Part shown: positions 6,724 through 12,088 of the stretch, piece by piece | Numbering within the stretch: the stretch's first letter is position 1 | Layout of the letters: each line of letters starts with the position of its first letter | From: Thalassospira sp. TSL5-1 | GTDB taxonomy: Bacteria > Pseudomonadota > Alphaproteobacteria > Rhodospirillales > Thalassospiraceae | NCBI RefSeq assembly: GCF_001907695.1 | Contig: NZ_KV880637.1 | Coordinates: 310,001-374,000, forward strand | Reading direction: 5' to 3' | DNA length: 64,000 nt | Made by a program: the position numbers and the translations under genes | The notes under the pieces: model-generated | Seen by the model: only the letters and a program-made list of their open reading frames with translations | The model's database searches: none | Told to the model about the DNA's origin: nothing

Positions 6724-9700
6724 TTAATCGCGATTTGAAAGCTGTTTGGTGGTCAGGTCCAGCCGTTCGGCCAGAACCCGCAGCAATTGGACGGATACGG
6801 CTTGGTCCTGGCGGACAAGCCCCAGGAATTCAGCCTTGTCGAGTTTCAGGACGGTCATGTCTTCGACTGCACGGATGGTGGCCGAGCGGGGCTGATCGAC
6901 CAGCAGTGCAATTTCGCCAATCACTTCCTTCGGTTCGACATCGCGCAATTTCAGGGTTTGGGCTTCGTCTGTTGTCAGCCAGATTTCACCACGCCCGGAA
7001 ATCACGATAAAGGCGGCATCACCCGGTTCACCCTGTTTGACGATGACCTCGCCACGCTTATAAGTAAGACGCGGGCTGGTAAATGCCAGCAGCTTGATGA
7101 CATTCGGGTCGAGTGCGGAGAATAGCGGGATGGTCCGCAGCAAACGGACTTCTTCCTCGATGCTGCCATCTTCGGTAGGGCCGATATCGCTTTCGGCGGT
7201 GATGGCGGCGGCATCTGTCGTCGGGTCCGGGGTGATCGCCTCATGTGTGTCGCGGCGCGTCAGTTTGCCATTGGACATGTGCAATGCGGTGGAAAAATGC
7301 TCGCTTGGCATATCCGCCCCATCAACCCAGATCACGCTGAGGTCACTGGCGCTTTTGGTCAGATATTTCACCACCTGATCGCGGGTTTCGTTGTCGATGG
7401 CGGACAATGCCTCGTCGATGACAAGGATATCGGGGTTTTTGATCAGGGCACGCACCAGCGTTATTTTCTGACGCAGGCTTTGCGAAACCCGGCTGCCGCC
7501 CACACCGACATCCGATTCCAGGCCCAGGCTGATCAGGGCTTCATAAAGGCCGCCATCCCGGGCAATTTCAAACAGGACTTCACCGACACGTTCTTCGGAA
7601 TGGGCACGGCCATAGGCAAACCGGCCAAACAGCAGGTTATCGAGGATCGAGGCCGAGGCGGTATAATTATCGGCGTCAAAGAAATCGATTTCCCGGACCA
7701 GATCATCGGGAATGTTTTCGTGAAATTTGGGCCGCGCCTTAAGAACCATATCGCGGAAATTGTCGTCCATGACGCGCAGACGATGACGGGCCGGGGTCAG
7801 ATTCATGGCGACTTCAAGAAGGCGCAGTTGGTCTTCCTCGCCAATATCGCTTACGGCGACGCCATCAATGCGTTTAAGCATATGTTTGACTTCGGTGAGT
7901 TCGTCCGCCGAAATGAAGCTGTAGCGGTCAAAAAATTCATGCCCGGGCGGCAGGCCGGTAAACAGCTCGATCATCAGATCCAGCATGTTGCGTCCCATAT
8001 TGATCATGGGTTCGTACAGGCCGTTATCGCGCAAGACCCCGAGGAAATAGGGGTGGGACAGGAAACTCCGCCGTTCGTAATTCGGGTTTACCGGCACGCC
8101 GAAAATAAGGTTGATGCCAACCGTGGCATTGTCGTTATAACGATTGATGTCAAACGGTTCGACCAGATCCGCCAGCCCGCGTTCTGCCAGAAGTTCCTTG
8201 AGGCGCGGGCGCGCGGCAAGCACAGCCTGGGACAGGTTGGGCCGCAATTTGGGATCAATACGCCGGAAAAGACCGATGCGGTAAATGTCGCGATCCAGAT
8301 GCACCACCGACAGCAGCGACAGCAATTCGCTGTTAAGCTGTTCAAGCGATTCATAACCCGGGCCGGTATAGTCAATCCACTGGCCGCTGGGATCATAGGG
8401 GATATTGCCCGACCGTTTGATTTCATCAAACATCTCTGCTGTTAAATGGTCGGGCAGATCGGTGGGCGATGCCAGTTTAACTTCCTCGACCAGTTTCGGC
8501 GGGAGCAGTTTGCCAGTTTCTTCCTGGCTGTCGTCGGTTGCCATGCCTTGGTCTTTTGCCGCGGTTTTCCCGGCATTGGTATCGTCATCACGCTCTATTT
8601 GCGGGCGATGTTTTAACCCATAAAGCAGGTTGTCGGAAATGGTGCCGTGGAAAAGATAGGAATCCGGCCCGACATAGGCCGTCCGTTGCCCCAAAAAGGA
8701 AGCGGGTAATTGTGCGGCATTGACATCGGCAAACTGGATGCGGCCGCTGCTTGGATTTAACAGGCGTACCAGCAGCCGGGCGAGATGCGATTTGCCACTG
8801 TCTGCTGTGCCGGTCAGCAGGGCTGATCCGGGCAGGGGCATGTTGAAAGACACGTTTTCAACAACGCGCGTGCCGTCATCATCCATCCAGGACACGCCAT
8901 ATACATCCAGTGGTGACTTCAGATGATCCGCCAGTGGTGCAGTCAGTTCGTGTTCCTGGTCCAGATCGGGCAGTTCAAATTGTTCATATAGCTGGTCATA
9001 TTTGATATGCGCATCGGCCAGGCGCTGATAATAGGCCAGCAATTCCTTCCAGGGCGCGGACATATCCTTGTAGGCGGCAAGGGCGGCCACCAGTGCGCCA
9101 AATGACAGATCCCCCTGAATGACCAGATAGCCGCCAATCGAATAAAAGAAAAACGGCGTGATCTGGGCGATGAAGTTGTTAAGGAATTTGATGAAAAACT
9201 TGCGGAAATAGATTTCCTTGCGGATTTCAAAAATACGGCCCATGCGCTGGGTATAGCGCATCAGCTCGTAACCCTGGGTATTGTGGGCGCGAATATCGGT
9301 CGCACCGCTAACGGTATCGCCAATATGTTCGGACAGGCGACGGATATTCTGAACGCGGTCTTTACCCAGCTGGTTTACACGCCGCTGCAATTTCGGAATG
9401 ATGTATCCCTGCAGCGGGTAAAATGATACCGCAGCCAGCCCCATGAGCGGGTCCTGAATAAAGATAAAGGCCGAAATGGTAATCAGGATGCCGCCCTGAT
9501 AGACCGGCAGGGAGAAGGCCTCGCCAAAAAAGCCACCCAAAGGTTCGGCCTCGGCGGTGATCATGGAAACGATTTCGCCCTGGCTGGTTTTGCGGAAATG
9601 CGGCAGCGGAAAACGCAAAATCCGTTCATACAGGATATAGCGCATCCGGCGCAAAAGCCGTTCGGCCATAACCCCGGTATAAACGTTGATCAGGTATTTG

Positions 9701-9948
9701 AACCCGCCATTGATGAAAACCAGGGCCAGAAAAATACCCGACAGGCTAAAAAGATATTCAACCTGGTTTAGCTCGATCCCCAGAATATCAAAAGGTTCGC
9801 CAGCACCCCCAATGGCCTTGTTGACGATCATTTTGGGCAAATCGAGGGAATAATACAGAAACGGAAAAGACAGCACCGTAATGATCAAAAGAACGATCTG
9901 CTGAAAGCGGCTGTGGCGCCAGATATAGGCAAATACCGACTGCGGCAT
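6724..9948 (-). CDS. ABC exporter-like protein with duplicated insert and C-terminal cNMP-binding domain
   Basis: A 1074-residue protein. Residues 1-330 are a six-helix type-I ABC exporter membrane domain. An ATPase-like domain starts near 345 with Walker A GTADSGKS (380-387) and ends with Walker B ILVIDEALSAID (841-852). About 390 residues are inserted between the first ATPase half and Walker B, and they contain an approximate tandem repeat: ARPRLKEL...NLIFG...GLYEPMINMG and ARPKFHEN...NLLFG...GLYEALISLG. The usual Q-loop glutamine is absent (TAYVGPDSYLF), the signature LSGGQ reads VSQSLRQ, and the switch histidine is replaced (VIWVDGAD). Residues ~940-1060 form a cyclic-nucleotide-binding fold (GEVIVKQGEPGDAAFIV, PRSATIRA). 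It is the middle gene of an apparent three-gene unit. Substrate unknown; ATP hydrolysis is doubtful. Confidence 0.85.
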   Translation of the reverse strand: MPQSVFAYIWRHSRFQQIVLLIITVLSFPFLYYSLDLPKMIVNKAIGGAGEPFDILGIELNQVEYLFSLSGIFLALVFINGGFKYLINVYTGVMAERLLRRMRYILYERILRFPLPHFRKTSQGEIVSMITAEAEPLGGFFGEAFSLPVYQGGILITISAFIFIQDPLMGLAAVSFYPLQGYIIPKLQRRVNQLGKDRVQNIRRLSEHIGDTVSGATDIRAHNTQGYELMRYTQRMGRIFEIRKEIYFRKFFIKFLNNFIAQITPFFFYSIGGYLVIQGDLSFGALVAALAAYKDMSAPWKELLAYYQRLADAHIKYDQLYEQFELPDLDQEHELTAPLADHLKSPLDVYGVSWMDDDGTRVVENVSFNMPLPGSALLTGTADSGKSHLARLLVRLLNPSSGRIQFADVNAAQLPASFLGQRTAYVGPDSYLFHGTISDNLLYGLKHRPQIERDDDTNAGKTAAKDQGMATDDSQEETGKLLPPKLVEEVKLASPTDLPDHLTAEMFDEIKRSGNIPYDPSGQWIDYTGPGYESLEQLNSELLSLLSVVHLDRDIYRIGLFRRIDPKLRPNLSQAVLAARPRLKELLAERGLADLVEPFDINRYNDNATVGINLIFGVPVNPNYERRSFLSHPYFLGVLRDNGLYEPMINMGRNMLDLMIELFTGLPPGHEFFDRYSFISADELTEVKHMLKRIDGVAVSDIGEEDQLRLLEVAMNLTPARHRLRVMDDNFRDMVLKARPKFHENIPDDLVREIDFFDADNYTASASILDNLLFGRFAYGRAHSEERVGEVLFEIARDGGLYEALISLGLESDVGVGGSRVSQSLRQKITLVRALIKNPDILVIDEALSAIDNETRDQVVKYLTKSASDLSVIWVDGADMPSEHFSTALHMSNGKLTRRDTHEAITPDPTTDAAAITAESDIGPTEDGSIEEEVRLLRTIPLFSALDPNVIKLLAFTSPRLTYKRGEVIVKQGEPGDAAFIVISGRGEIWLTTDEAQTLKLRDVEPKEVIGEIALLVDQPRSATIRAVEDMTVLKLDKAEFLGLVRQDQAVSVQLLRVLAERLDLTTKQLSNRD

Positions 9949-9991
9949 GCACGTTTCCCGTTATACTGCAATGCCTGGCCGGGATATCCGG

Positions 9992-10771
9992 TCAGGCCAG
10001 GTCAAAGCTTTGTTCCGGCAAGATGAAGCCGCAAAAACCGTCGGCGACGGCATCGGGCTTGGCATAGGCCGGATAATGATAAAGCCACATTTTGGCTTTG
10101 ATGTCGTCGGGCAGGGTTTTTAACTGCTCGTAATGTGCATGTACACCCGATCGACGCGGCCCGAGTTCACAATCCTGAAAAATGATGTCGGCCTTGCGAT
10201 AGAAGGCCATATGGGCGTCAGGATCGAAGATCGCATCCGTTGTAATAAAAAAGCGCGTTGACCGTGTTTCGCCAAACAGCGCGTATGACAGCATTTTTCC
10301 TTCGTCAGCAATAATATGATCAACCGGTAAAATGCTGATATGTGCGTCGTGCCAGTCAAATGTACCTGTTGCTGACAGGGGTTTGACATTGAAATAGGTT
10401 TTCAGTTTCCGATCACCGTGGTCGCTGACCTCCAGCCCGCCGCGCAGGCTGTGTTCCCATAACGGGGTAATCAGGTCATCAACAAGGTAAAGATCGACGC
10501 GGTGCTGATTGAAAATAAAATAGTTGCTTAAGGCAATCCATTCGAGGCCCCCGATATGGTCCGAGTGCAGGTGGCTGATATAGATGGCGTCAAAATCCTT
10601 GGGCCATAATCCGAGGCGATGCAACGCATGGCGTGCATCTGTTCCGCAGTCAATCAGCATACGTGCCAGTTTGCCTGTATCGGTATTCGTCGTTTCCAAA
10701 ATCATATTGCTTTGGAAATTATCGGCCGCGGTGCAGAACGCTGATCCTGTCCCCGCAAACGTAAGCTTCAT
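9992..10771 (-). CDS. Metallo-beta-lactamase-fold hydrolase (RNase Z-like)
   Basis: 259 residues with the N-terminal MKLTFAGTGSAF of RNase Z/phosphodiesterase-type members, the zinc motif HLHSDH, a second histidine in PVDH, and an aspartate in the FITTDAIFD strand. LYHYP near the C-terminus can supply the last ligand histidine. AAGGGAG lies eight bases before the ATG. It precedes the ABC-cNMP gene by 43 bases on the same strand, so they may be cotranscribed. The family includes cyclic-nucleotide phosphodiesterases and tRNA 3' nucleases. The neighbour's cNMP domain makes a phosphodiesterase role tempting but unproven. Confidence 0.82.
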   Translation of the reverse strand: MKLTFAGTGSAFCTAADNFQSNMILETTNTDTGKLARMLIDCGTDARHALHRLGLWPKDFDAIYISHLHSDHIGGLEWIALSNYFIFNQHRVDLYLVDDLITPLWEHSLRGGLEVSDHGDRKLKTYFNVKPLSATGTFDWHDAHISILPVDHIIADEGKMLSYALFGETRSTRFFITTDAIFDPDAHMAFYRKADIIFQDCELGPRRSGVHAHYEQLKTLPDDIKAKMWLYHYPAYAKPDAVADGFCGFILPEQSFDLA

Positions 10772-11128
10772 TCCCCAACTCCCTTACTTTGGGAAAATCT
10801 TAGACGAGGAAGGCCCTGCAGAACCACCTTAATTTATTCAATTTTGCAGGTAACGGCGCGTTTTATCGGGCTTTGTGCCCATCTCTTTGCCAATTGCCGG
10901 TCTTTAAGGCGCAAAAATAACCTCAAAAGGCGGCATTAGGCGAAAATTTAAAGCCCAAACCAAACTTGTGCGCGTTGTTATGCCGTAACCGGCGTAACGT
11001 ATCGGCCCGGCAGGGACTCGGCTTTGATGTTGTGTGCCGGGGCGTGGGCAGGGTGCTAAAATAACACAATAAAAAAGGGTCAGCACCAATACTGGCCTGA
11101 CCCCTTTATGACATCGGAAAGAGTTTGA
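10772..11128. other. Intergenic gap with no recognisable gene
   Basis: 357 bases between accA (reading toward the left) and the hydrolase promoter side. Apart from the accA terminator at 11071-11103 I see no conserved frame, RNA fold or repeat. Short frames here lack ribosome-binding sites. Confidence 0.5.
11071..11103 (-). terminator. Terminator of accA
   Basis: Stem GGGTCAG (11077-11083) with CTGACCC (11097-11103), 13-base loop. On the minus strand it is followed by six T (A run 11071-11076). It sits 25 bases past the accA stop. Confidence 0.8.
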
Positions 11129-12088
11129 TCAGTTGATACCCTGACGCCCCATTTCCAGGAATTTGTCACGGCGGCGGGCTTTCAGAACGCCTCCTTCAAG
11201 ATCGGAAAGTTCGATCAGGGCCCTCTCGATGGCATCGCCCACTATTTTACAGGCATTTTGCGGTTCGCGCTGTGCGCCGCCCAGCGGTTCAGCAACGACT
11301 TCGTCAATGACACCAAGCTGCTGCAAATCCTGTGCTGTCAGGCGCAGGGCTTCGGCGGCTGTTTTGGCTTCGTCACCTGAACGCCACAAAATGGAGGCGC
11401 AGCCTTCGGGGGAAATGACGGAATAAATCGAGTTTTCCAGCATCAAAACGGTATTTGCCGTGGCAAGGGCTATGGCACCACCCGAACCGCCTTCGCCAAT
11501 AATGACCGAAACCAGCGGCACCTTGATGTCAAGGCAGGTTTCAATCGAGCGGGCGATGGCTTCGGACTGGCCGCGTGCTTCGGCCTCGGCCCCCGGAAAG
11601 GCACCAGCGGTATCCACAAGTGTGACAACCGGGATGTTAAACCGTTCTGCCATGCGCATCAGGCGAATGGCCTTGCGATAGCCCTCGGGTTTGGCCATGC
11701 CGAAATTGTGCTTTACACGGGTTTCGGTGTCGCGGCCCTTTTCGTGGCCGATCACCATCACACTGCGACCACGCAAACGGGCCAGACCACCAATAATGGC
11801 TTCGTCTTCACCATACAGGCGATCACCGGCCAGCGGGGTGAAATCATCAAACAGATATTTGATGTATTCCACGAAATGCGGGCGATCCGGATGGCGGGCA
11901 ACCTGGGTTTTCTGCCAAGGGGTCAAACGGCCATAGGTGCTTTGCAAAAGCTTGGTCAGTTTGTCTTGCAGGCGCGCAACTTCATCGGCAATGTTGACTT
12001 CGTCGTCATTGCCGCTTAGGTGGCGGAGCTCTTCGATCTTGCCTTCGAGTTCGGCGATCGGCTTCTCAAAATCCAGAAAATTGTGCAT
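11129..12088 (-). CDS. accA: Acetyl-CoA carboxylase carboxyltransferase alpha subunit
   Basis: 319 residues, the normal length of AccA. The N-terminus [18 protein letters not shown] is diagnostic, as are [19 protein letters not shown]-like [24 protein letters not shown], and [10 protein letters not shown], which forms part of the crotonase-fold oxyanion site. With AccD it transfers the carboxyl group from biotinylated AccB to acetyl-CoA, giving malonyl-CoA for fatty acid synthesis. It is monocistronic here, as is usual in alphaproteobacteria where accD lies elsewhere. Confidence 0.97.

Follow-up and report, generated by a model that had tools for sequence, protein, structure and literature searches.

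The gene considered here lies in a window of 64,000 nucleotides from Thalassospira sp. TSL5-1 (NCBI RefSeq assembly GCF_001907695.1, contig NZ_KV880637.1, positions 310,001 to 374,000 of the forward strand) and encodes a protein in which the transmembrane domain (TMD) of an ATP-binding cassette (ABC) exporter is joined to a split ATPase domain and to a C-terminal cyclic nucleoside monophosphate (cNMP)-binding domain. Comparison with its relatives makes it, on balance, somewhat probable that this protein is an ATPase-dead, cNMP-controlled gate or regulator of ABC fold that acts in an envelope-glycan pathway. A bolder form of this idea, which we put forward only tentatively, is that a whole class of proteins with the ABC exporter fold gave up ATP in the Alphaproteobacteria and would now serve as a second-messenger-gated, ATP-independent conduit or flippase for envelope glycans, its ATPase domain having been rebuilt by triplication.

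In the window protein, ABC_membrane is followed by ABC_tran, as in the type IV ABC exporter fold, and a single-chain AlphaFold2 (AF2) model of its 1,074 residues has a mean predicted local distance difference test (pLDDT) score of 88.7 and a predicted template modeling (pTM) score of 0.79. A preliminary description of the gene, made from the sequence alone, had named Walker motifs, repeated motifs between them, and a C-terminal cNMP-binding domain, and translation places each named motif exactly where it had been put. Walker B (ILVIDEALSAID) occupies residues 841 to 852 and NLLYG residues 440 to 444, and the two units of the insert, here called B and C, hold ARP (579), NLIFG (613 to 617), and GLYEPMINMG (643 to 652) in the one and ARP (738), NLLFG (771 to 775), and GLYEALISLG (800 to 809) in the other; Pfam likewise recovers the cNMP-binding domain (Table 1). 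The ATPase domain is split by about 340 residues. Walker A and Walker B are 458 residues apart, almost four times the 121 that separate them in an ordinary exporter encoded by the same genome; the earlier figure of about 460 residues was accurate, and its wording of more than twice the usual distance was an understatement. Also as described, the Q-loop Gln, the signature, and the switch His are all replaced (GPD at 427 to 429, VSQSL at 821 to 825, and DG at 876 to 877), and the protein retains only two of the five motifs of an ATP-hydrolyzing ABC transporter, Walker A and Walker B.

We scored these five motifs (Walker A, the Q-loop Gln, the LSGGQ signature, the Walker B DE, and the switch His) in 205 proteins and in a second set of 107 rows, which comprised 94 locus open reading frames (ORFs) and 13 of the same 205 proteins and was obtained from 110 sequences by removing 3 unrelated ORFs at E 1e-30. 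None, one, two, or three motifs are kept by 60, 81, 63, and 1 of the 205 proteins, respectively, and by 45, 46, 14, and 2 of the 107 rows. The canonical set of five is found in none of the 205 proteins and 107 rows (13 shared), where the maximum is three. A homologue with canonical Q-loop, signature, and switch residues, which the preliminary description had named as grounds for abandoning its proposal, is likewise absent from both sets, and single motifs persist: among the 205 proteins, Walker A is kept in 56, the Q-loop Gln in 67, the signature in 1, Walker B in 37, and the switch His in 49. Control rows, consisting of the ordinary exporter mentioned above and its orthologues (31 rows in which the reference is counted twice, 30 of them distinct), keep all five motifs in 29 of 31 and four in the other 2.

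Subgroups of the family, which were set by rank (the 32 closest relatives) and by length rather than by domain scans, differ in what they have lost. All 32 of the closest relatives keep Walker A and Walker B and have lost the Q-loop, signature, and switch residues; most rows beyond them have lost Walker A, Walker B, or both. The earlier proposal of a domain that binds ATP without hydrolyzing it therefore fits the 32 closest relatives but not most of the other rows. In rows of 840 to 939 amino acids, mostly of the split-gene form, the Walker B Asp is changed to Asn in 77 of 83, Walker A carries D or E in 76 of 83, and the Walker A S/T is replaced in 83 of 83. The corresponding counts in rows of at least 1,120 amino acids are 49 of 50 for the Walker B change and 24 of 50 for the Walker A S/T, and distant members have no Walker A whatsoever. 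What was lost thus differs from branch to branch.

The usual gradient of conservation is reversed as well. Mean pairwise identity within the family is 55% for the transmembrane part, 38% for the ATPase core, and 41% for the insert (5,565 pairs), compared with 53% for the transmembrane part and 63% for the ATPase core of the 30 distinct control exporters (435 pairs). The ATPase core is more conserved than the transmembrane part in 2.8% of the family pairs versus 97.5% of the control pairs. We read this as relaxed catalysis while the membrane part and the insert stay under constraint; judging by the motifs, ATP hydrolysis has probably been lost.

Profile comparison indicates three occurrences of one in-frame segment of the ATPase domain, which comprises the Q-loop strand, the N-L-L-Y-G helix, and the helix that follows. 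The dot-plot that had been proposed as a check gives a repeat signal, with the pairs 429/602, 593/751, and 631/788 within the top four when the single sequence is scored with BLOSUM, and the signal is also present by profile comparison. Copies B and C, compared as family profiles, align across 91 columns with an hhalign E of 1.2e-16; restricted to residues 585 to 665 and 743 to 822, they score 79 (E 3.5e-16). In a gapless scan of 26-column profile pairs, 592/750 ranks first (42.7) and 419/750 second (21.7), and the helix pairs 535/785 and 537/630 score 17.8 and 17.2, where the best pair outside the repeats scores 14.8. When residues 412 to 448 are joined to the helix at 530 to 565, the composite scores 46.5 against B (585 to 665) and 43.8 against C (743 to 822), with E values of 2e-9 and 9e-9, and the best of 51 control comparisons reaches 15.98. 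Either part alone also scores above the best of 172 controls (15.65): the strand part (412 to 450) reaches 27.9 and 29.6 against B and C, and the helix (528 to 566) 27.4 and 21.2. The bounds of this first copy were picked after the 26-column scan, the controls were contiguous windows, and under looser bounds (395 to 446) the first ATPase half is insignificant against B and C (probability 2 to 5%), so that the third copy stands on weaker ground than B and C. The repeat in the insert is therefore real, as had been claimed, but the segment copies number three rather than two. The kinship suspected between NLLYG and the two units extends to the helix at 530 to 565, which had been missed, and the insert is no foreign addition, its copies being copies of a part of the ATPase domain. 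VIA-align places residues 600 to 744, weakly, on ABC transporter ATPase domains.

In Alphaproteobacteria, the insert is a feature of the family as a whole. A query made of the insert (residues 446 to 800) retrieved 909 proteins at E 1e-3 among 8,000 candidates scored, the best 120 of which are listed, and an insert-only query detected the family in 31 of the 398 genomes sampled from the phylum, every one of which falls in the class of the window. In a second collection, 551 relatives were confirmed; the best 80 of these are mostly labelled as Alphaproteobacteria or its subgroups, and six of the 80 are labelled Gammaproteobacteria or Granulosicoccus. Within the insert, W524, R580, N613, F616, G617, F663, F678, H722, R739, N771, and G775 are invariant in an alignment of 114 rows. 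Shorter relatives exist too. The genome of the window carries a TMD-only relative of 318 amino acids that has no ATPase domain (L002 1483-2439; G000:C1:1686339-1687292), and TMD-only ORFs of about 310 to 425 amino acids occur in 11 of 142 genomes of the class.

The C-terminal domain probably binds a cyclic nucleotide because its pocket is intact. The Pfam cNMP_binding match contains an intact phosphate-binding cassette, and among 104 sensor ORFs from 103 loci, picked by their similarity to the cNMP domain of the window protein, G1011 is present in 104, E1012 in 95, and R1021 in 103, these being positions that we take to be ligand binding. The sensor also tends to stay with the ABC gene. Of the 32 loci outside Thalassospira that the insert alone retrieved, 6 have it fused, 21 have it as a separate gene that directly adjoins the ABC gene and shares its strand (27 of 32 linked), and 5 have none. 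In a set of 94 loci, most of which were ranked using a query with the sensor included, it is fused at 23, adjacent at 61, absent at 8, and at contig ends in 2. Class III nucleotide cyclases occur in 31 of the 31 family genomes, so a cyclic nucleotide may be available to these proteins. As a separate observation, one such cyclase (L117; G167:C88:49842-50384) is separated by about 70 bp from a family copy without an adjacent sensor gene.

Recurrent neighbors of the relatives include two GT28-type and two GT4-type glycosyltransferases and a histidine phosphatase, among others, mostly on the opposite strand, and at least one of the four glycosyltransferases is near 58 of 80 loci and 17 of the 32 insert-found loci. 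The order on pRL11 of Rhizobium johnstonii 3841 is three glycosyltransferases, the ABC gene, and the sensor gene; the pSymB copy of Sinorhizobium meliloti is also beside glycosyltransferases, and in the genome of the window the whole cluster lies 1.14 Mb away on the same contig. Strong matches to one glycosyltransferase, GT28b (at least 385 bits), were found in 27 of the 398 genomes, and all 27 carry the insert-containing ABC gene, linked or unlinked; the cut for a strong match (380 bits) was set after the scores had been seen, at a drop from 385.6 to 236.5 that leaves 10 of 37 matching genomes below it. In the 4 genomes that have the ABC gene and no strong GT28b match, the sole family copy has no adjacent sensor gene. 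The co-occurrence has a Fisher P of 5e-38, or 2e-26 at the genus level, neither corrected for phylogeny, and indicates that the ABC gene and the glycosyltransferases are inherited together. We infer that the product of the cluster is an envelope glycan and that the protein controls a step in its handling.

Directly upstream of the ABC gene is a hydrolase gene (Table 1) whose product, a metallo-beta-lactamase (MBL)-fold protein, matches Anti-Pycsar_Apyc1 (PF23023) with 99.9 bits against a cut-off of 50, has PDB matches 7u2s and 7u2r, both named Apyc1, and carries the HxHxDH motif, which together make it a predicted Apyc1-type enzyme. The suggestion in the preliminary description that this neighbor could be a cyclic-nucleotide phosphodiesterase is thus consistent with its family. 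Its further suggestion of a three-gene module was rejected as a feature of the family: an MBL homologue accompanies the gene at all 7 Thalassospira loci but at none of the 73 others (phmmer E 1e-5, in up to 8 kb of flank and less at contig ends, so that more distant MBL enzymes could escape), and at E 1e-15 the pairing is seen in 4 of the 31 family genomes, each belonging to the genus of the window. The wider partner is the glycosyltransferase cluster, which lay beyond the view of the earlier description, and not the hydrolase. The Pycsar defense system places a cyclase gene beside a cNMP effector. None of the nine PF00211 places in the genome is in the window (C1:310001-374000), and the nearest on its contig is at C1:460014, PF00211 being the one cyclase family sought.

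We propose that the ATPase domain no longer serves as an engine but as a scaffold, made larger by two additional in-frame copies of its own Q-loop and helical segment. Control would come from a cyclic-nucleotide sensor, which is part of the window protein itself and, in most other relatives, the product of the adjoining gene. Once the sensor has bound a cyclic nucleotide, a change would pass through the enlarged pseudo-ATPase domains, presumably of a homodimer, to the transmembrane helices, which might then either give passage to a glycan or glycolipid without ATP as the driving force or act as a switch on the glycan machinery. The Apyc1-type enzyme encoded beside the protein in Thalassospira would terminate the signal through hydrolysis of the nucleotide.

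Several observations weigh against an ATPase-dead, cNMP-controlled protein of this kind. Walker A and Walker B are intact in all 32 of the closest relatives, so ATP binding and slow turnover are possible for the window protein itself, and the Q-loop Gln and switch His persist in 67 and 49 of the 205 proteins. The repeated ARP helices resemble each other (profile score 36.6), and we rejected the idea that they are copies of the signature helix, since their scores against the true one (8.0 and 9.6) do not reach the control maximum of 16.2. The 5 insert-found loci without a sensor nearby all belong to one genus. According to passages of the report on HetC, the best ligand of its comparable domain is guanosine tetraphosphate (ppGpp) and not cyclic AMP (PMC10986499). 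Class III cyclases are also found in 5 of 14 control genomes, so that their presence proves nothing specific. None of the four glycosyltransferases was seen near 22 of the 80 and 15 of the 32 loci, including 7 from Thalassospira and some on short contigs, and 9 of the 10 genomes with weaker GT28b matches (at most 237 bits) are without the family.

A rival view is that the protein has remained an ATP-driven exporter despite its unusual catalytic residues, export being powered by ATP binding alone or by slow hydrolysis through the retained Walker B glutamate, with the cNMP domain doing no more than tune it. We regard this as unlikely, given that motif losses differ among branches (the D to N change in Walker B prevails in both length classes, and the Walker A S/T is replaced in all of the shorter rows and about half of the longer), that distant members are without Walker A, and that variation is greater in the ATPase core than in the membrane part, the opposite of the controls. 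A purely regulatory membrane receptor or scaffold, comparable to SUR1, that recruits or switches glycosyltransferases and transports nothing is possible, if doubtful. It would suit the lost motifs, the large conserved cytosolic insert, the inheritance with glycosyltransferases even when unlinked, and the additional C-terminal GGDEF-like domain carried by some relatives, in six of which (P0035, P0036, P0044, P0063, P0073, and P0108) a check found no GG[DE]EF-type motif, so that this appears to be a second degenerate domain on those six proteins. The transmembrane part is, however, the most conserved region and so seems to have a specific task within the membrane. Pure regulation narrows down the gate or regulator that we favor and is at the same time a rival to it, and the likelihoods given to the two overlap.

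Pairing with another protein offers a different account of the missing motifs: the window protein would be the degenerate member of a heterodimer whose other half is either an unlinked canonical ABC protein or the TMD-only relative from its own genome. All 11 genomes with TMD-only ORFs also hold a family-size ORF (P about 3e-7, uncorrected for kinship, in the 142-genome sample), but no TMD-only match was obtained in 30 of the 41 sampled genomes that hold a family-size ORF, and a partner without an ATPase domain cannot supply the missing site; we consider such a heterodimer distinctly improbable. A Pycsar-type phage-defense circuit, with the protein as membrane cyclic-nucleotide receptor and an Apyc1 enzyme beside it, would account for the adjoining Apyc1-family gene and for PADLOC matches of the cNMP domain to Pycsar models. 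Those matches, however, span only the generic cNMP domain (residues about 949 to 1072), the class III cyclase places of the genome are all outside the window, the Apyc1 pairing was seen in one genus only, and the recurrent link is to glycosyltransferases, all of which makes a defense circuit very improbable.

ABC exporters are textbook ATP-driven pumps. A bacterial family with no canonical site in any sequence examined, with a tripled ATPase segment, and with an attached second-messenger sensor would show the exporter fold re-used under other control, possibly as a signal-controlled gate or switch for cell-surface sugar, and the rhizobial copies beside glycosyltransferases on pRL11 of R. johnstonii 3841 and pSymB of S. 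meliloti make the idea directly testable in laboratory strains that are easy to handle. The exporter fold is known, as are, each singly, exporters with degenerate sites and exporters with cNMP-fold domains. The window protein shares its transmembrane and ATPase fold with type IV ABC exporters of the MsbA, ComA, and TmrAB type, but its family differs from them in the degraded ATPase motifs, the tripled segment, and the reversed conservation gradient. TmrAB, ABCC7/CFTR, and ABCB11 also have a degenerate ATP site in an exporter fold, and the passages available on them state that they keep one canonical site (PMC7756269); with no canonical set in the 205 proteins and 107 rows, a homodimer of the window-family protein, if that is its form, would have no canonical site. 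HetC of Nostoc is similar in being an ABC exporter with a cNMP-fold sensor needed for function; as described in part of its report, the sensor is N-terminal, accompanied by a C39 peptidase, and binds ppGpp, and HetC requires an ATPase catalytic residue (PMC10986499), whereas in the window family the sensor is C-terminal or a separate gene and the ATPase is degraded. The hydrolase shares PF23023, the 7u2s and 7u2r matches, and HxHxDH with Apyc1 and class II MBL cyclic-NMP phosphodiesterases, and differs from the Apyc1 phage genes in being the chromosomal neighbor of a putative membrane receptor. Host Apyc1 enzymes in other cNMP signaling are raised as a possibility in a passage of PMC9117128, and Thalassospira would be one genus with a chromosomal Apyc1-type enzyme beside a candidate cNMP receptor. 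Judged by titles and abstract openings in the open-license PubMed Central (PMC) literature, we found no description of the family and none of the combination of a degenerate site, a cNMP domain, and a tripled ATPase segment.

Table 1. Features of the ABC gene and its neighbor, in positions of the window
Feature	Position	Strand	Residues and remarks	Pfam
Whole ORF, 1,074 amino acids	6724..9948	-	ABC-exporter TMD, split ATPase domain with tandem segment copies, C-terminal cNMP-binding domain	PF00664, PF00005, PF00027
ABC-exporter TMD	8974..9936	-	5-325; best-conserved part of the family	PF00664, 90.4 bits
Walker A GTADSGKS	8788..8811	-	380-387; intact here, altered in most relatives beyond the 32 closest	
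Q-loop position	8653..8679	-	424-432; Gln replaced	
Segment copy 1, first part	8605..8715	-	412-448; Q-loop strand and NLLYG helix	
Linker inside copy 1	8362..8604	-	449-529; low model confidence at 465-478; holds conserved W524	
Segment copy 1, second part	8254..8361	-	530-565; helix	
Segment copy 2 (B)	7954..8241	-	570-665; ARP, NLIFG, GLYE	
Segment copy 3 (C)	7483..7764	-	729-822; ARP, NLLFG, GLYE; runs into the signature position	
Signature position GGSRVSQSLR	7468..7497	-	818-827; LSGGQ lost	
Walker B ILVIDE	7411..7428	-	841-846; intact here, D to N in 158/205 rows	
Switch position DG	7318..7323	-	876-877; His lost	
cNMP-binding domain	6805..7068	-	961-1048	PF00027, 78.1 bits (cut-off 27.5)
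Phosphate-binding cassette GEIALLVDQPRSAT	6877..6918	-	1011-1024; conserved in fused and split relatives	
MBL-fold hydrolase, Apyc1 family	9992..10771	-	259 amino acids; HLHSDH metal motif; 43 bp upstream of the ABC gene, same strand	

A scan of positions 9900 to 11200 found promoter and terminator signals no more often than in shuffled sequence. One genome (G083) has three sensor-fused copies (L089, L090, and L091) without a recognizable Walker A. In the pSymB record of S. meliloti 1021 (L126 9685-12436), the gene of the relative is split across two overlapping frames; the records of strains 2011 and Rm41 have the same gene as a single open frame of 922 codons, so intact copies exist. SMb20813 may, as a guess, be the S. 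meliloti family gene, the one passage found naming SMb20813 only as the msbA homologue, and a literature follow-up of the names redA and redB, given to genes of the glycosyltransferase region in Rhizobium etli CIAT 652, led to nothing. An operon for an ABC importer adjoins the glycosyltransferase cluster in Thalassospira, where translations were read (L170 11151-17411), and in Rhizobium, where it is annotated (L123 144-6114); its R. etli counterpart is annotated as being of the oligopeptide type.

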